A stretch of DNA of 46,837 nucleotides from Candidatus Binatia bacterium (GTDB lineage Bacteria > Desulfobacterota > Binatia > UBA12015), in assembly GCA_029243485.1 (NCBI GenBank), contig JAQWRY010000025.1, positions 1 to 46,837 on the forward strand, read 5' to 3'. Each line of letters starts with the position of its first letter. Within the stretch, counting starts at the first letter, position 1. Both the position numbers and the translations under genes were made by a program. Positions 37,297-43,650 of the stretch are shown piece after piece. The notes under the pieces are model-generated. The model was given only the letters and a program-made list of their open reading frames with translations. It made no database searches and was not told the origin of the DNA.

Positions 37297-38676
37297 TCAG
37301 AACTCGCCCATCAATCCGTGGCGACGCATCCGCCGCCAAAGCGTCACGCGCGAGATCCCGAGCTCCCGCGCCGCGGCCTCCCGACGCCATCGATGTCGCC
37401 CGAGCAGACGCTCCAGTTCCTCCCGCTCCACCTCGTCGGGAGAGCTCTCCGCCACGACCGTCGCCCGCCGATCGGAGCCCCGCGACGCCGAAGACGGCAG
37501 CTGCCCGAGAGCCGACGCCCAGCCGGCACGCCAGCCGGCGACGTCCGCCACAGCCCTTGCCCGCTCGACGAAGTTCTCCAACTCCCGGACGTTCCCGGGC
37601 CAATCGTAGAGCTCCATCCGAGCGAGGTCCGCGGCGAGAGGAAGCGCTCGCCCGCTCGCGCCCGGGAAACCCTCGCCGCGCCCTCCGCGCTTCAGGAGGT
37701 GCGCTACGAGAAGGGAAAGATCGGACGGCCGCTCACGCAGCGGCGGCACCCTGACACGAAGCACGTCGAGCCGGTAGAAGAGGTCGCGCCGGAAGGTGCC
37801 CTGCTGGACCATCGACTCCAGGTTCCGATTGCTGGCGGCAAGGATTCGCACCTCTGCCGTCCGGAGGCGAGCCGTCCCAACGGGCCGATACTCGTGCTCC
37901 TGAATCAGTCGGAGAAGCTTCCCTTGGATCGACGCGGGAAGATCCTCGACCTCATCGAGCATCAACGTTCCGCCCGAGGCATGCTCCACCAGGCCGGCAC
38001 GGTCGGAGCCCGCGCCGGTGTACGCCCCGCGGACGTGCCCGAACAACTCGGCTTCGGCAAGGGCTTCGGGCAAGGCGCCGCAGTTCACCGCAACGAAGGC
38101 CCCCTTCGCCCGCGTGCTCTCTCCATGGATCGCCCGCGCGACGAGTTCCTTTCCGACGCCGGTTTCCCCTTCGATCCGCACGGGCGCGAGGCTCCGCCCG
38201 CACCGGCGAACCTCTGCGCGAACCGCGCGCATCTGCGGGCTCGCCCCGACGAGTGTCGACTCGGGTCCCACCCGCCGTGCCGCCACCAAGTCGCCGAGGA
38301 GTCCGGCGACCCCGTCGACCGCGCCGCCGCCCTTAACGAAGTAGTCGAGGGCTCCCGCATGCAGCGCGCGCACCGCAGTGCGCGCCGAGCCATCGGCCGT
38401 AAGCAGGACAAACGGGACCTCCTCCCCGCGTCGGCGCAGCCCGCGCACGACGCCGAGCCCATCGCCGTCCGGCAAAGAGACGTCGAGCACCAGCACGTCG
38501 ACCGGTGAGGACTCGACCCGAAGCGTTGCGGCTTCGAGCGACTCCGCCGTCTCTATCCGCAAGCCCGGAACCCGGTCACGAAGCGCCGCGACCAGGACCG
38601 CCGTATAGACGAGGTCATCATCGACGACGAGCGCCGTCGGTCGGTCCGGCGCGCCCCTATCCTCTACTCGTTCCAT
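37297..38676 (-). CDS. Sigma-54-dependent response regulator (NtrC family, GAYTGA variant)
   Basis: A 459-residue bacterial enhancer-binding protein. The receiver domain (residues ~12-130) has the phospho-acceptor D65 (VLVLDVSLPDGDG), acidic pair DDD at 19-21, LLTADGS and DYFVKG lysine. The AAA+ domain has Walker A GETGVGKE (170-177), the sigma-54 contact loop reading GAYTGA (217-222) instead of GAFTGA, Walker B GGTLMLDEVEDLP and the PPLRERPSDL motif. A Fis-type helix-turn-helix ends it (AAARELGISRVTLWRRMRR). The receiver's DxxxGGG insert (FVKGGGAVDG) is glycine-rich. No histidine kinase is adjacent on this strand; the kinase-like genes lie divergently at 39.4 and 42.5 kb. Confidence 0.93.
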   Translation of the reverse strand: MERVEDRGAPDRPTALVVDDDLVYTAVLVAALRDRVPGLRIETAESLEAATLRVESSPVDVLVLDVSLPDGDGLGVVRGLRRRGEEVPFVLLTADGSARTAVRALHAGALDYFVKGGGAVDGVAGLLGDLVAARRVGPESTLVGASPQMRAVRAEVRRCGRSLAPVRIEGETGVGKELVARAIHGESTRAKGAFVAVNCGALPEALAEAELFGHVRGAYTGAGSDRAGLVEHASGGTLMLDEVEDLPASIQGKLLRLIQEHEYRPVGTARLRTAEVRILAASNRNLESMVQQGTFRRDLFYRLDVLRVRVPPLRERPSDLSLLVAHLLKRGGRGEGFPGASGRALPLAADLARMELYDWPGNVRELENFVERARAVADVAGWRAGWASALGQLPSSASRGSDRRATVVAESSPDEVEREELERLLGRHRWRREAAARELGISRVTLWRRMRRHGLMGEF

Positions 38677-39008
38677 CGTTCACCACCCCGGGACGCCACC
38701 CTCGATTCGCGCGCGACGCTACCACGGGAGGCAGGCGGGTCCGGCCTGCACGCGAGACAATGAAGACGCGGTCGCACCCGGGGTGCACCGCGACGGGCGG
38801 GGCCGGCCTGCTTCGACCGGCCCCGGCGCGTCCCCCGGCCCCCTAGGCGGACCCCATGTCGCGCCCAAGCGACCCCCTCACCCAGAAAGCCAACGCAAGT
38901 CGTACGCCAGCGGGAACCGCATGGCAGGCGCTCGCTCCGCACCAAAAGTGGAACGGGTCGTTTCTCCGGCGCGAGCGAACCGTTACGAGAAAGGAACCGA
39001 GCGTTTCA
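38677..39008. promoter_or_regulatory. Divergent intergenic region with inverted repeats
   Basis: This 332-base gap separates the minus-strand activator gene from the plus-strand signalling genes. It contains a perfect eight-base-pair inverted repeat GGGGCCGG/CCGGCCCC (38799-38806 with 38817-38824, 10-base spacer) and a compact dyad GCACCCGGGGTGC (38774-38786). These could be operator sites or transcript hairpins. I found no GG-N10-GC sigma-54 promoter with the expected flanks. Confidence 0.4.
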
Positions 39009-39365
39009 ATGTCCCCCACCGTTCAGCCCCCCGCGGCGAGAAAGCGCCAACCAGTGCGCCAGTGGTATAAAAACCTCCCGCTGATGGCGGGCCTCGTCCT
39101 GATTGCCCTCGGTTTAGGCAACTGGATCACCGGCTCGATACGAACGGCCGAGCACGCGCAGCAAATCGAGGAATCTCTCCAGGCGCCGTCACGCGGAGGT
39201 GTCTCCAGCAAACGGCCGAGCGCAGAGGAAGTCGAGATTGCACGCGTTCGGATGGACTTCTACCACGTCGTTGCGAGCGGCGGTCGTCTCATGACGGCAG
39301 CGGGATTTCTTTTAACGACATTCGGCCTTGCGCGTTCCTTGCGGCCGCGGGCAAGAAAGGGATGA
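39009..39365 (+). CDS. Small two-span membrane protein
   Basis: The predicted product of 118 residues has a basic N-terminus, a first transmembrane helix (LPLMAGLVLIALGLGNWITG), a ~50-residue hydrophilic loop (EHAQQIEESLQAPSRGG, VEIARVRMDFYHVV) and a second helix (RLMTAAGFLLTTFGLARSL), then a basic tail. No family recognised. The ATG at 39009 is favoured; an ATG at 38856 would add a poorly composed 51-residue tail. Its stop overlaps the next gene's start (ATGA), so the two are translated together. It could anchor or sense for the fusion protein; that is inference. Confidence 0.7.
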   Translation: MSPTVQPPAARKRQPVRQWYKNLPLMAGLVLIALGLGNWITGSIRTAEHAQQIEESLQAPSRGGVSSKRPSAEEVEIARVRMDFYHVVASGGRLMTAAGFLLTTFGLARSLRPRARKG

Positions 39366-40840
39366 CCGAGCGGACACGGCAAGCACTCCTGCATATGCCC
39401 AAGGCGACGAACCTCATACTGCCAGCGGGACGCTCTTCAATCGGCAAACCCGAGTCCTGGCCCCTCCTTCCAGATGCCGCGAGGATCCTCGCGCGCGTGG
39501 CGCCTAGCTCCATCCCGGTGCTCTGCCTGGGCTCCAGCGGCACTGCGTTCGCGCGGCTCGCCGGGAGCGTGCATCGCGCAAGTCAGCGCGTGCGACTCGC
39601 ACGCGTCGACCTCAGACGCGAGGGAGCCGGCGGCATTCTCGCGTTGCCGCACGGGTCCGAAGCTTCCTATTTGACGCTTGCGCTCGACGGGCTCGAGGCG
39701 CTCGATGACTCGGGACAGGGCACCCTCGCCTCCTATCTCGACGAATCGTCCCCACGCCTCATCTGCGCGACTCGAGTCTCAGCGGAGGACCTGACGGGAA
39801 CCTTCCGCGCGGACCTGCTGGGACAGCTCTCGACGGTCACCGTGGACACACCAGCGCTGCGCGAGCGCGGGCGCGAAATCGGTAGCCTCGCCTCCGAGCG
39901 CATCGCGATGCTCGCGCGCGAGATCGACCTTCACGAGGCCCCCACACTCACCGAATCGGCGACCGCCGCCCTCGCCTCCCACAACTGGCCCGGAGACGTG
40001 ACCGAGTTCGATGCCGTCCTGCTCGCGACCCTATTGCGCGAACCGCCCTCTGCGACGATCGAGGCCAGCGACCTCCTGTGGCCCCGCCAACCCGCGGCCC
40101 TTTCCACCTCGACCCCGTCGGCGACGATTCGCCCGCGCGACTCCGAACCGCCACTGACGCCTTCGCTCCCCGAGCCGCCTCGCGAGACGGTCGCAGCCCC
40201 GCCTCTGGACGCGGCCGCGGAGCCCCTCGACACGCTCGAGTCCGTCGCGGTCGAACTCGCCCATCAGCTGAAGAACCCCCTCGTCACGGTCAAGACGTTC
40301 GTGTCGAACGCCGAACGGATGGATCACGAGGAGATGACCCGGTTCCGGGAGATCGCGCTCGAGGGAATCGACCGGATCGACGGCCCCCTGGACCAGATCC
40401 TGGACTTCTCCCGGCTCCCCGGTTCGACCGACGATACCCTCGAAGTGGCTCTGGAACTGACGAAATCTCTGGAATCGGTCGCCCCGAAGCTCGACGCCAA
40501 AGGCATCTCCGTCCAGGGGATCCCGCCGAGCCTGCTCCCGGCCCGGGGGTCCACGGCGAACCTCGACTTCGCCCTCTCGACCCTCACCCAACACATCGCC
40601 GAGACCATCGAGCCGCAAAGCATCCTCATGATCGCCCGCCCATCGGCGGACCTCGTTCTCCTCCACTACCGCGAATCCGGCGCCTCGACGCACCTCCGAG
40701 GAGCCACCGGAAACCCCGATTCTAGTTTTCCTCTCGCCCTGTTGCTGGTAAGAGGCGCCCTCACACGGATGGGTGGTGGCCTCCGGACGAGCCACGCGCA
40801 TACGGAGGTGACGGTCGAGTTGTCCTTCACCCCTGCGTAA
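39362..40840 (+). CDS. Degenerate sigma-54 AAA+ domain fused to histidine-kinase-like module
   Basis: A 492-residue protein with an unusual layout. Residues ~45-225 align in order with the AAA+ core of NtrC-type activators: PVLCLGSSGTAFARLAGSVH in place of the Walker A helix, LTLALDGLEAL for Walker B, LICATRVS for sensor I, FRADLLGQLSTVTV, PALRERGREI and NWPGDVTEF. But the P-loop lysine is Phe63, Walker B has DG for DE, and the ~25-residue GAFTGA loop is missing. A proline-rich linker (~245-285) leads to a HisKA-like helix pair with H301 in ELAHQLKNPLVTV. The C-terminal ATPase-like part (~395-490) ends with a recognisable LALLLVRGALTRMGGGLR yet lacks the N-box asparagine and G-box glycines. 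No receiver and no Fis helix-turn-helix. Most likely a non-ATP-hydrolysing regulatory or scaffold protein; phosphorylation through H301 by another kinase is possible. Confidence 0.8.
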   Translation: MTERTRQALLHMPKATNLILPAGRSSIGKPESWPLLPDAARILARVAPSSIPVLCLGSSGTAFARLAGSVHRASQRVRLARVDLRREGAGGILALPHGSEASYLTLALDGLEALDDSGQGTLASYLDESSPRLICATRVSAEDLTGTFRADLLGQLSTVTVDTPALRERGREIGSLASERIAMLAREIDLHEAPTLTESATAALASHNWPGDVTEFDAVLLATLLREPPSATIEASDLLWPRQPAALSTSTPSATIRPRDSEPPLTPSLPEPPRETVAAPPLDAAAEPLDTLESVAVELAHQLKNPLVTVKTFVSNAERMDHEEMTRFREIALEGIDRIDGPLDQILDFSRLPGSTDDTLEVALELTKSLESVAPKLDAKGISVQGIPPSLLPARGSTANLDFALSTLTQHIAETIEPQSILMIARPSADLVLLHYRESGASTHLRGATGNPDSSFPLALLLVRGALTRMGGGLRTSHAHTEVTVELSFTPA

Positions 40841-40890: not shown

Positions 40891-42324
40891 ATGTCCACAC
40901 ATCCCCAGGGCGCACCCACGGACGATACCGAGAGCGTCAAACGAACACGCCGGCCGCACGTACTGGTCGTGGACGACGAAGCGGGGATTCGCGAATCGCT
41001 CCGGATCATCCTTAGGGACGAGTTCGAGTTGTCGTTCGCAGAGACCGGCGAAGAAGCGCTTCGCAAGACTTCCATCGAGCAACCGGACGCCGTCCTCCTC
41101 GACATCGTCTTACCGGGGATGGATGGCATCGCCACCTTGGAACGCCTTCGGGCAGAGGTACCGCACACCCCCGTCGTGATGGTCACGGCGACGCGCACCC
41201 TGAAGACGGCCGTGACCGCGATCAAACTCGGCGCGTACGACTACGTCCAGAAGCCGTTCGACCTCGACGAGCTGAAGGTCCTGCTGGGCAATGCAGTGCG
41301 CACGTCCGCCCTGCAGCGCGAAGTCGACGAACTCCGCGCGGAAGTCGGTCGCCGCTACCAGGTGGGCAACATCGTCGGTCGGTCCAAGGGGATGCAGGAC
41401 GTCTTCCGAACCGTCTCGATGGTGGCGCCGCTGCGCACCACCGTGCTGATTACGGGAGAAAGCGGAACCGGCAAGGAACTGATCGCCAAGGCGCTACACT
41501 ACCAGAGCCCGCGCGCCGGCCGCCCGATGACAGCCATCAACTGCGCCGCGATTCCGGAATCGCTGCTCGAGAGCGAGCTCTTCGGGCACGAGCGCGGCGC
41601 GTTCACCGGGGCCGACACGAAGAAGCTCGGCCTCTTCGAGTTGGCCAACAACAGCACGATCTTCCTGGACGAGATCGGCGAGCTTCACCCAACCGTGCAA
41701 GCCAAGCTGCTGCGGGTCCTGGAGACCGGAGAGTTCATTCGCGTCGGTGGCACCCGCTCGGTGTCCACCGACGTGCGCATCGTCGCGGCCTCGAACCGGA
41801 ACCTCGAAGAAGGCTCGCGCGACGGCTCGTTCCGGGCGGATCTCTACTACCGCCTGAACGTCGTCTCGATGCACCTGCCGCCGCTTCGCGAACGGCGCGT
41901 AGATCTCGCGCTCCTCATCCGGCACTTCGCGCAGGCCAAGGCCGTCGAACTCGGGATCCCCGAGCGCACATTCGCACCGAAGACCATCGACCTCCTCCTT
42001 CGCTACCGCTGGCCCGGGAACGTCCGCGAATTGGAGAACCTCGTCGAGCGACTTCTGGTCCTGGCGACGCAAGGACCGATCACGCCCGAGGAACTCCCGG
42101 TCGGGATGCGCGAGGCCCCCACCGGGAGCCCCGAGGACGTCCGCGCCGCCGTCCTCCTCGGAACCAAGAGCCTCTCCGACGCCGTCGACGGCTTCGAGCG
42201 CGACATCATCTCCTTGGCGCTCCAGGTGGCCGACTTCAACCAGACGCGAGCGGCAGAGCGATTGGGCACGACACGACGCATCCTGAAGTACCGAATGGAC
42301 AAGCTAGGAATCGGCGAGCGCTGA
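40891..42324 (+). CDS. Sigma-54-dependent response regulator (orthodox NtrC family)
   Basis: A 477-residue enhancer-binding protein. The receiver carries D71 (AVLLDIVLPGMDGI), DDE at 28-30 and YVQKPFD lysine. The AAA+ domain has Walker A GESGTGKE (189-196), the GAFTGA loop (236-241), Walker B STIFLDEIGEL and the arginine-finger region FRADLYYRLNVV; all are standard, so it should hydrolyse ATP and remodel sigma-54 polymerase. The Fis helix-turn-helix (FNQTRAAERLGTTRRILKYR) binds upstream activator sites. It is in the same orientation as the fusion protein 50 bases upstream and the receiver-kinase 216 bases downstream. Confidence 0.96.
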   Translation: MSTHPQGAPTDDTESVKRTRRPHVLVVDDEAGIRESLRIILRDEFELSFAETGEEALRKTSIEQPDAVLLDIVLPGMDGIATLERLRAEVPHTPVVMVTATRTLKTAVTAIKLGAYDYVQKPFDLDELKVLLGNAVRTSALQREVDELRAEVGRRYQVGNIVGRSKGMQDVFRTVSMVAPLRTTVLITGESGTGKELIAKALHYQSPRAGRPMTAINCAAIPESLLESELFGHERGAFTGADTKKLGLFELANNSTIFLDEIGELHPTVQAKLLRVLETGEFIRVGGTRSVSTDVRIVAASNRNLEEGSRDGSFRADLYYRLNVVSMHLPPLRERRVDLALLIRHFAQAKAVELGIPERTFAPKTIDLLLRYRWPGNVRELENLVERLLVLATQGPITPEELPVGMREAPTGSPEDVRAAVLLGTKSLSDAVDGFERDIISLALQVADFNQTRAAERLGTTRRILKYRMDKLGIGER

Positions 42325-42540: not shown

Positions 42541-43650
42541 ATGAACAACCACAACCAGGTCCTAGTAGTGGACGACGAGGACGGCCCTCGTGAGTCCCTG
42601 AAGATCATCCTCAAGGCCGAGTTCGGCGTAACCGCCACGGAGAGCGGATCCTTAGCCCTCGAGCTCTTGCGAAGGACCGAGGTCGACGTCGTCTTGCTCG
42701 ACCTGACGATGCCCGAAGACCTCTCGGGCACGCAAACCCTCGAGGCGATCCGCAGCTCCGGAATCGACGTCGAGGTCGTCGTGATCACGGGTCAAGGTGC
42801 ACTCGATACCGCGGTCGAATGCCTGCGACTGGGAGCCCGCGACTACATCGCGAAGCCCTATCGCGCAGAGGACGTTCGCGCCGCGGTCCGGTCCGCACTC
42901 GCCGCTCGGACCGCGCGAAAACGCGCGAGTGAGATGCGCGGGCACTTGCTCGAGAATCTCTCGCACGAGTTTCGCACCCCGCTGCACGCGATCACCGGCT
43001 ACACCGAAATCTTGTCGGACGAGGCAAGCGAGACCCTGTCGAGCGAGCAACTTCGCGCGCTCGCCCGTATCCAACTCAATTCCGAGAGGCTCCTATCTTA
43101 TATCGAAGGCCTGTTCTTTCTCGCCGAGCTCGACGCCGGGGAGACGCCGGCCAATGCCCGTGAGTTCGCCGTCCGCCCCTGGCTAGAGCAACTCATCTCT
43201 CCGATCCGTCGCGACGCCGACCAGAACGGCGTGATCATCGAGATCGTCTGCGACAACGCCCTCACCGGGTACGCGCATCCCGAAACCCTGGCGCGCCTCA
43301 TCAGTGCGCTGACGTATGCCGCAGCGGACCAGCCGTCCGGGGGGACCATTCGGGTCGTTGCCCAACGCACCCACGAGGCCTTCCATCTGTCGATCGATCC
43401 CGGTCGCGGCGTCGCCGGCGTGTCGGTCGGAACGCGGTCCAGCGAGATCAGCGACCTGAATCTCTCCGATCCGCTCGCCCAAGAAGTCATCGTGCGCGCC
43501 GCGGCAAGTCTGAACGCGAACATCGCCACCGAACTCGACGGCGGCTCGATCCTCCGAATCCACTTGGAGATCCCTATCCAACCGGCGGCCACGACTCGGC
43601 CCCGAACGCCGACGCCACACCACTCCGGCGTGGCCCAGCAAGCGCGATGA
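42541..43650 (+). CDS. Receiver-histidine kinase hybrid with eroded ATP-binding domain
   Basis: A 369-residue protein. The receiver is first: DDED at 11-14, D54 in VVLLDLTMPED, K105 in DYIAKPY. HisKA follows, with H142 in ENLSHEFRTPLHAITGYTEI, a normal H-box. The HATPase region (~210-345) keeps one DPGRG-like G1 but has no N-box asparagine (ARLISALTYAAAD) and no GLGLA-type G2, so ATP binding is doubtful. No membrane helix and no DNA-binding domain. The ATG at 42541 is preferred because the upstream frame reads as leader. The gene is coupled to the following one through ATGA. With a receiver and a usable histidine it might act as a phosphotransfer protein rather than a kinase. Confidence 0.85.
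   Translation: MNNHNQVLVVDDEDGPRESLKIILKAEFGVTATESGSLALELLRRTEVDVVLLDLTMPEDLSGTQTLEAIRSSGIDVEVVVITGQGALDTAVECLRLGARDYIAKPYRAEDVRAAVRSALAARTARKRASEMRGHLLENLSHEFRTPLHAITGYTEILSDEASETLSSEQLRALARIQLNSERLLSYIEGLFFLAELDAGETPANAREFAVRPWLEQLISPIRRDADQNGVIIEIVCDNALTGYAHPETLARLISALTYAAADQPSGGTIRVVAQRTHEAFHLSIDPGRGVAGVSVGTRSSEISDLNLSDPLAQEVIVRAAASLNANIATELDGGSILRIHLEIPIQPAATTRPRTPTPHHSGVAQQAR

Follow-up and report, generated by a model that had tools for sequence, protein, structure and literature searches.

The gene at 39362-40840 of the window, the whole stretch of 46,837 nucleotides that was analysed, is one member of a conserved bacterial family whose proteins join a worn-out activator motor to a worn-out sensor kinase, with only the phosphate-handling histidine site still intact, and its neighbour is the activator that it probably restrains. 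It is under purifying selection, and the copy in the window represents its reduced end: members of the family often carry a pseudo-receiver at the N terminus and lie downstream of an intact kinase gene. The gene and the parts of its product (the fusion protein) are as follows.

39362-40840, + strand: gene for the fusion protein of 492 amino acids, with a dead sigma-54-type AAA+ domain, a linker, a HisKA/DHp domain and a dead catalytic (CA) domain.
39449-40096, + strand: sigma-54-activator-type AAA+ fold and lid, residues 30-245, with Phe63 in place of the P-loop Lys, DG at Walker B and no GAFTGA loop.
40088-40225, + strand: Pro-rich linker, residues 243-288, predicted to be disordered (pLDDT <50), with the highest dN among the parts in three of three comparisons.
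40226-40417, + strand: DHp/HisKA helical hairpin, residues 289-352, from Pfam and the model, with H301 and N305 invariant in 65/65 relatives and Gln302 at +1.
40262-40264 and 40274-40276, + strand: codons of H301 and N305, the invariant pair.
40424-40837, + strand: Bergerat-type CA fold of the model, residues 355-492, without N-, G1- and G2-box residues.

An alternative start is possible at M12 (ATG 39395), where the same-genus copies begin in the alignment. The first-pass annotation, which was made from the sequence alone, had described a broken sigma-54 activator core fused to a kinase-like module, and this domain reading is correct: a dead sigma-54-type AAA+ domain is joined to a kinase-dead HisKA/ATPase module. 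The NtrC-type motifs lie where they had been placed, beginning with LGSSGTAF, in which F63 occupies the position of the P-loop Lys, and LALDGLEAL, with D109-G110 at Walker B, and continuing through LICATR, FRADLLGQLS, PALRERGREI and NWPGDV; no GAFTGA segment was found on reading the sequence. The Pro-rich linker and the H-box are also borne out, H301 lying within ELAHQLKNPLV, as is the ATPase-like tail, in which comparison of alignment columns found no N-box or G-box residues. The position +1 to the phospho-His is Gln302 and not an acid.

We used Pfam and AlphaFold2 to assess the domains independently of these motifs. Pfam matches Sigma54_activ_2 at residues 42-166 (E=4.5e-7, above the cut-off), AAA_lid_14 at residues 167-238 (E=2e-5; 24.7 bits, just under the cut-off of 27) and HisKA (PF00512) at residues 299-352 (E=4.1e-7), with no match to HATPase_c or to any HTH family at E<=1. 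None of the 25 NCBIfam families listed for the fusion protein scored above cut-off, and the same holds for the best 25 of 40 listed for the homologue at locus L041. The AlphaFold2 model, built from 33 aligned sequences, has a mean pLDDT of 81.6, exceeding 90 across most of the AAA+ part and falling below 50 at residues 243-289. It contains a sigma-54-type AAA+ fold at about residues 30-245; the outcome that would have undone the earlier reading, a model with no such fold, did not occur. Residues 30-246 of the model match FlrC (VIA Z 19.2, rmsd 5.0, 209 residues aligned) and PspF (VIA Z 18.9, rmsd 4.2, 211 aligned), and Foldseek ranks VpsR top for this part, with PspF next.

Residues 355-492 of the model adopt a kinase CA fold (VIA Z 16.1 to the ThkA catalytic domain). 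Modelled alone, the DHp-CA part has a pLDDT of 84.5 and matches ThkA and VanS with VIA Z scores of 16.3 and 16.1; its top Foldseek matches are HK853 chains, many of them out of HK853-RR468 complexes. The profile of this part aligns with ZraS, a kinase that pairs with the NtrC-class regulator ZraR, across positions 3-215 of 216 (E=2.3e-24). ChpT and Spo0B are named neither among the 21 PDB sequences matched by the profile at E<=1e-6 nor among the 50 Foldseek/VIA matches listed for the DHp-CA model. By model and alignment, the fusion protein has a DHp hairpin with its His and a degenerate CA-like domain, as kinase-dead DHp phosphotransferases do.

The homologue search recovered the same fusion in 65 distinct full-length relatives; these are the relatives that the searches reached, they differ in the last 300 residues and they include close pairs. 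Incomplete members (L052, L068, L069 and L071) were excluded, as were L025 and L062 for runs of N. Full-length relatives within the genus are 53-68% identical to the window copy, and those in seven of the ten other genomes of the family 34-46%. Across the window's class, probably Candidatus Binatia, 60 of 118 sampled genomes of at least 80% completeness match at E<=1e-55, with one copy each, as do 45 of 84 high-quality genomes at the same threshold. Outside the class but in the same phylum, 13 of 143 sampled genomes match at 2e-65 or better; all 148 genomes of the phylum profile search match at 1e-20, mostly via ordinary activators, and only matches at or below 2e-65 were counted. We rejected a mobile or defence gene: PADLOC matches only the AAA+ part of RtcR-type regulators, and four plasmid records match only the AAA+ part of the fusion protein.

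The pattern of conservation is uneven along the protein. The phospho-His, the Asn at +4 and the next Pro (P306) are each present in 65/65 relatives, and the AAA+ lid retains W209 in 64/65, G211 in 63/65 and E215 in 65/65. The P-loop Lys is kept in 16 and a motif search found GAFTGA in none. An acid stands at +1 to the phospho-His in 48 relatives (45 E and 3 D; the rest are 9 Q, 6 R, 1 H and 1 K), the 17 losses comprising all 11 members of the window's own family and six others. In the CA domain the essential N-box Asn survives in 6/65, the G1 Asp in 0/65 and the second G2 Gly in 0/65; Pfam finds HisKA in all 29 relatives searched and HATPase_c in one (E=3.2e-5).

In 41 of the 65 relatives a receiver-like part, counted where at least 120 residues precede the P-loop, stands before the AAA+ domain, which is the domain order of NtrC. 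Its phospho-Asp is absent in 38 of these (30 G, 4 N, 2 A, 1 E, 1 P) and present in three, a count that supersedes a smaller set of 28 relatives in which the Asp was missing from 26. The Pfam Response_reg family scores above its cut-off in L117 and below it in L041, and is not listed at E<=0.1 in L054, L015 or L105. The pseudo-receiver is a feature of the relatives; the window copy has no receiver part.

We used the Nei-Gojobori method to compare the gene with three same-genus copies, obtaining dN/dS values of 0.33, 0.25 and 0.41. The DHp domain has the lowest dN in all three comparisons and the lowest dN/dS in two; in the third (L036), dN/dS is 0.40 for DHp, 0.30 for AAA+ and 0.70 for CA. Values for the AAA+ domain span 0.28-0.39. 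It had been conceivable that homologues would carry Lys and GAFTGA at the broken positions, making this copy only a local mutant, but GAFTGA is absent from every relative although the Lys is kept in some. We rejected a local mutant or a decaying gene on the strength of the 65 open frames, the dN/dS of 0.25-0.41 and the invariant H-box.

The fusion gene lies in the following row of genes.

38856-39365, + strand: small protein that, as judged by eye, has two apparent transmembrane (TM) segments and probably starts at ATG 39010.
40891-42324, + strand: NtrC-type response regulator with receiver, AAA+ domain with GAFTGA and Fis HTH, the predicted partner.
42541-43650, + strand: receiver-HisKA protein (gene 4), CA boxes lost in the window's family; start at TTG 42412 in the list of open reading frames.

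In the window, the gene for the small TM protein overlaps the fusion gene by ATGA. A link between the fusion protein and the activator encoded next door, already suspected in the first pass, is backed by synteny: of the 61 loci with sufficient flank, 60 (all but L065) have an NtrC-type regulator gene downstream, on the same strand and starting within 700 nt. The receiver Asp is kept in 55/55 of the NtrC receivers examined (of 62, the rest being missed by the search pattern), and the window genome encodes sigma-54. Of the 52 loci with flank, 30 have a sensor kinase gene immediately upstream, and the two such kinases tested by Pfam, those of L049 and L122, are of 7TM-GAF type with intact HATPase_c. 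The phospho-His, +1 acid, +4 Asn, N-box Asn, G1 Asp and second G2 Gly are present in 34/34 upstream kinases, a count in which intact kinases are favoured because they were picked by a profile of 16 upstream kinases. At a threshold of at least 375 bits, 24 of the 43 loci with sufficient flank have a receiver-HisKA gene after the NtrC gene; 31 of 43 exceed 100 bits, of which seven matches of 167-189 bits were dropped because the one inspected (L122) is a receiver-HD protein, and the count would miss genes broken by assembly error or lying farther off. In 15 of these receiver-HisKA genes, all from loci outside the window's family, the CA boxes do not vary.

The window's family, with 11 distinct members, forms a subset of its own. 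An upstream kinase was not found in the ten members with flank, no member has a receiver part before the AAA+ domain, and the +1 acid is lost in 11/11. The CA boxes of gene 4 are gone in the six readable members, and a small TM protein motif lies upstream in 9/11, compared with none of the other 54 loci. Because no intact CA domain was found in the cluster of this family, phosphate would need an outside source.

The partner NtrC is itself unusual. Of the 60 loci in which its GAFTGA loop is readable (the other two of the cluster set of 62 are not), 50 have N, D, S or H in place of the second Gly, whereas 4 of 23 control activators have N or D there; the controls are a small best-match sample of the 30 best-scoring activator loci in three genomes from which two cluster members and five unreadable loci were removed. 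In the window's family the Gly is present in 8 of 9 readable partners versus 2 of 51 elsewhere, and because this family is one clade the reversion counts as one evolutionary event. At the same Gly of NorR, the substitutions G266D and G266N escape repression by its repressing domain, according to the accessible text of PMC2941729. An external brake on NtrC would make sense because these N and D variants escape repression; the Gly in the NtrC of the window's family means that this hair-trigger argument is not applicable to the window copy. The link with GAFT(N/D)A activators yields an evolutionary prediction that is testable in E. coli.

Rows of a histidine kinase, a second histidine kinase and an NtrC gene occur in several Verrucomicrobia and Kiritimatiellae and on one Lentisphaerae contig (together PVC). 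Three of the PVC second kinases have HisKA and intact HATPase_c in Pfam, with PAS in two and GAF in one, and, as judged by eye, a receiver-like N terminus. In a tree of DHp domains (158 rows, 84 columns, a quick search without bootstrap, with 75 of 155 inner branches open and long-branch warnings), the upstream kinases, 34 in all (SH-aLRT 98), fall together with 27 of the 39 PVC first kinases (86), whereas the fusion proteins lie on the opposite side, together with the PVC second kinases. Twelve PVC first kinases are also on that side, ten there and two amid the second kinases; the labels first and second follow gene order in the locus, so that a cut contig can lead to a wrong label. The tree thus gives moderate support to a grouping of the fusion protein DHp with the second kinases of HK-HK-NtrC operons, and because of this placement the fusion protein looks, on moderate evidence, like a second kinase that has broken down and in which a dead activator motor has taken the place of the sensor. 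A simple fusion of a duplicated NtrC with a duplicated upstream kinase is weakened, the two DHp lines being apart in the tree.

Our leading reading, which we hold tentatively and at somewhat less than an even chance, is that the fusion protein is a kinase-dead partner that takes phosphate from the adjoining NtrC, to which it is docked via its dead AAA+ copy; here we infer every biochemical activity, partner and direction. The protein would not be expected to autophosphorylate, because its CA domain is without ATP-binding boxes, or to drive sigma-54 promoters, because the P-loop Lys, the GAFTGA loop and an HTH are all missing. Its DHp domain, presumably dimeric, would dock on the receiver of phosphorylated NtrC and, with its phospho-His and +4 Asn intact, strip the phosphoryl group by phosphatase action or by reverse transfer to H301, acting as a brake or sink for NtrC~P. 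The dead AAA+ domain would serve to bind a protein, in the simplest case by recognising the AAA+ domain of NtrC itself, and would thereby direct the brake to the right partner. This reading centres on NtrC~P because the His and the +4 Asn kept in 65/65 relatives serve HisKA phosphatase and phosphotransfer chemistry. Kinase activity is excluded as far as sequence can exclude it.

In CrdS and related HisKA proteins, kinase activity requires the +1 acid, which phosphatase activity does not, and the Asn or Thr at +4 is required for phosphatase and dispensable for kinase activity, as the accessible part of PMC3510030 describes. The conserved His contributes to HisKA phosphatase activity without being essential for it and has no bypass in phosphotransfer, and only 0.9% of HisKA domains are without it (excerpts of PMC12632262; for its role in phosphatase versus transfer compare those of PMC7005713 and PMC5727384). 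Because phosphatase activity can dispense with the His, its presence throughout the family fits transfer at least as well, and because so few HisKA domains are without it, its retention alone says little. Conservation of the +4 Asn may be structural, because it is also complete in the upstream kinases.

Several observations touch on the brake from either side. For it are the retention of H301, N305 and P306 in 65/65 as against loss of the +1 acid in 17/65, the N-box Asn and G1 Asp counts of 6/65 and 0/65 versus 34/34 in the upstream kinases, the NtrC gene downstream in 60/61 loci, the lowest dN in DHp in 3/3 comparisons, the ZraS-matching profile and the HK853-RR468 matches in Foldseek. Against it, PhyT and ChpT, the kinase-dead DHp-CA proteins described in the sources seen, are phosphotransferases, and the accessible text on PhyT reports no phosphatase activity in vitro (PMC5898713); in addition, the +1 acid is still present in 48/65 relatives, and the L036 comparison gives a higher dN/dS in DHp (0.40) than in AAA+ (0.30).

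The main rival to the brake is a forward phosphorelay, in which the fusion protein would be a histidine phosphotransferase passing phosphate from a receiver loaded by a kinase elsewhere (that of gene 4 here) to H301 and on to NtrC. We consider this rather unlikely; it is strongest in the window's family because no live kinase domain was found in the cluster there: there is no intact CA domain, no upstream kinase in the ten members with flank, and the gene-4 boxes are lost in six, whereas the Asp is kept in 6/6 gene-4 receivers and in the 55 NtrC receivers. PhyT, with HRxxN in its DHp and an ATPase domain that is degenerate, takes phosphate from SdrG and gives it to PhyR in the accessible account (PMC5898713), and HR is present in 6/65 relatives. 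The alpha-1 helices of the NtrC and gene-4 receivers are somewhat alike, with a mean identity of 0.43 over 26 pairs and 0.67 in the window against 0.22 for three control receivers, which is suggestive at most, as many of the pairs fall within the control maximum of 0.47. Against the relay stand the finding of a receiver-HisKA gene in only 24/43 loci, an intact upstream kinase in 30/52 loci that could serve NtrC directly, and the lack of Asp in 38/41 of the fusion proteins' own receiver-like parts. A hetero-dimer of the fusion protein with the live upstream kinase through their DHp domains, shifting its balance of kinase and phosphatase activity, would place that neighbour at the centre. The kinase has intact boxes and an H-box like that of the fusion protein (AHEIRNPLVAIRTF in L041), its frame overlaps that of the fusion gene in several loci, and in six f8 genomes it is the best DHp-confined match among those listed. 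However, it is missing from 22/52 loci with flank, including ten of the window's family, the closest match in the window genome to the upstream kinase of L041 is 37% identical over the kinase core, and the DHp lines of the two proteins separate in the tree, which leaves this arrangement quite improbable.

Conservation peaks in the H-box (His and +4 Asn) and not in the motor residues. This points to phosphoryl chemistry, which brings the phospho-relay scaffold proposed in the first-pass annotation nearer than the hexamer cap it also proposed. A ring role for the AAA+ domain as a hexamer cap is possible from its sequence, because the lid is conserved too (W209 64/65, E215 65/65). As a full explanation, a poison subunit or cap, with the dead AAA+ domain joining the NtrC hexamer to block or tune it and DHp serving dimerisation or recruitment, seems unlikely to us. 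It would account for an AAA+ fold and lid kept, at a dN/dS of 0.28-0.39, despite loss of the motor, and for the NtrC-like order of the receiver-like part in 41/65 relatives, and it has a parallel in FleQ-FleT, a hetero-oligomeric activator pair whose FleT is without receiver and HTH (in the accessible text of PMC7175178 and PMC7277832). Yet the invariant residues include catalytic ones of DHp, which a cap does not need, and a DHp dimer has no obvious match to a hexamer. A still active kinase with a divergent CA domain, or a merely decaying gene, is the least probable of all: the CA fold is kept in the model, HATPase_c is matched in one of 29 relatives and the +1 acid in 48/65, but the G1 Asp (0/65), the second G2 Gly (0/65) and the N-box Asn (6/65) speak against activity, and the open frames, dN/dS of 0.25-0.41 and invariant H-box against decay.

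A bolder reading would make the dead copy of the activator motor the address label of a kinase-dead phosphoryl handler, in which case such proteins would form a new class that controls sigma-54 activators in trans; we think this unlikely as it stands. In its favour, most sampled loci pair the fusion protein with an activator bearing the NorR-freeing loop residue (N or D), and in the window's family the cluster's intact kinase domains were lost as a set. If true, a full two-component protein would have been rebuilt from broken parts, with the histidine site alone working.

The first-pass annotation knew of no described family with this architecture, and a literature search by titles and the starts of abstracts, which covered neither subscription papers nor preprints, likewise found no description of it. 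In their accessible text, surveys of sigma-54 activators (EBPs) class them by receiver, other sensor and HTH, with no class having a kinase-type tail (PMC3162934, PMC7175178), and of two listed papers that name both Sigma54_activ_2 and HisKA, PMC8895600 presents them, in the part seen, as domains of separate proteins. A close kinase-side parallel is PhyT (formerly PhyP) of Sphingomonas melonis, which shares an HxxxN DHp, a degenerate ATPase domain and a gene at the locus of its regulator, and has a negative regulatory role; it differs in being membrane-anchored, with a putative sensor domain, the partner PhyR and HR in place of HQ, and the excerpted text mentions no AAA+ part for it, whereas the fusion protein has one (PMC5898713).

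NtrB/ZraS-type kinases resemble the DHp-CA part, whose profile matches ZraS over its full length, but the fusion protein differs from them in having no ATP boxes, Gln for the +1 acid and a dead AAA+ domain replacing the sensor. We know of no AAA+ or receiver part in ChpT or Spo0B and of no kinase-like part in FleT; VpsR, TyrR, DhaR and HupR are DNA-binding regulators. ChpT and Spo0B have a dimeric DHp, and the CA-like domain of ChpT cannot use ATP, as predicted for the fusion protein (accessible text of PMC3433190). VpsR, TyrR, DhaR and HupR are sigma-54-type AAA+ relatives that share a broken GAFTGA (excerpt of PMC3162934), whereas the fusion protein has no HTH match and has a DHp-CA tail. 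FleT of Rhodobacter sphaeroides is likewise an activator-type AAA+ protein that works with a partner activator; unlike the fusion protein, it is described as a second sigma-54 activator in the available portions of PMC7175178 and PMC7277832.

Gene 4 has its own counterpart in HsfB of Myxococcus xanthus (HsfB-HsfA), which has the same receiver-kinase build and an NtrC-like regulator as its partner; the source excerpt describes HsfB as a kinase, whereas gene 4 has lost its CA boxes. LvrB of Leptospira also appears by name among the matches listed. The PVC second kinases (Verrucomicrobia, Kiritimatiellae and relatives) share with the fusion protein the operon position and the side of the DHp tree, but in the three tested by Pfam differ in having no sigma-54 AAA+ domain and an intact HATPase_c. 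Pseudo-kinases, pseudo-receivers and degenerate sigma-54 activators are thus known separately; their combination, conservation and operon appear new. A fusion of such known dead parts, tied to one regulator in 60/118 genomes of the class and 13/143 elsewhere in the phylum, provides a natural test of two questions: what function a DHp domain has once kinase activity is gone, and whether a live activator ring can be affected by a dead AAA+ subunit.

At most cluster loci (designated by L-numbers), the GAFTGA loop of the partner NtrC, the regulator encoded downstream of the fusion gene, reads GAFTNA, GSFTDA or GAFTDA instead. Among loci with a readable motif, the second Gly is replaced by N, D, S or H at 50 of 60; in the window's family, this position is Gly in 8 of 9. 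The NtrC-type genes listed comprise two example partners and a second regulator in the window, oriented away from the cluster:

L041:8547-9956, partner NtrC gene
L056:8439-9818, partner NtrC gene
window 37297-38676, (-) strand, second NtrC-type regulator, motif GAYTGA

L065/L129 is the sole locus with flanking sequence where the downstream NtrC is absent. An MreB-like gene, judged by eye, lies upstream there.

The genes on either side of the fusion gene–NtrC pair in the window are:

window 38856-39365, start probably 39010, conserved small protein that carries the motif FYHVVASGGRL and apparently has two membrane segments
window 42541-43650, receiver-HisKA gene without CA boxes

The small-protein gene shares an ATGA overlap with the fusion gene, and its product, present in 9 of the 11 members of the window's family, has no Pfam match over the cut-off and no NCBIfam match. 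The CA boxes of the receiver-HisKA gene are gone in six family members (the window, L032, L034, L036, L037 and L038) and intact in 15 relatives outside the family. In the distant family of L122, a receiver-HD protein (L122:8102-9229) follows NtrC in place of receiver-HisKA. The L034 record (CAMBZJ010000025.1), which carries a window's-family cluster, is titled as a Klebsiella pneumoniae MAG, a label that is probably wrong.

The gene order HK–second HK–NtrC, with a similar H-box, occurs at L072, L073, L079, L090 and L098, loci from Verrucomicrobia, Lentisphaerae and Kiritimatiellae; there, HATPase_c is intact in the second kinase in all three cases tested.
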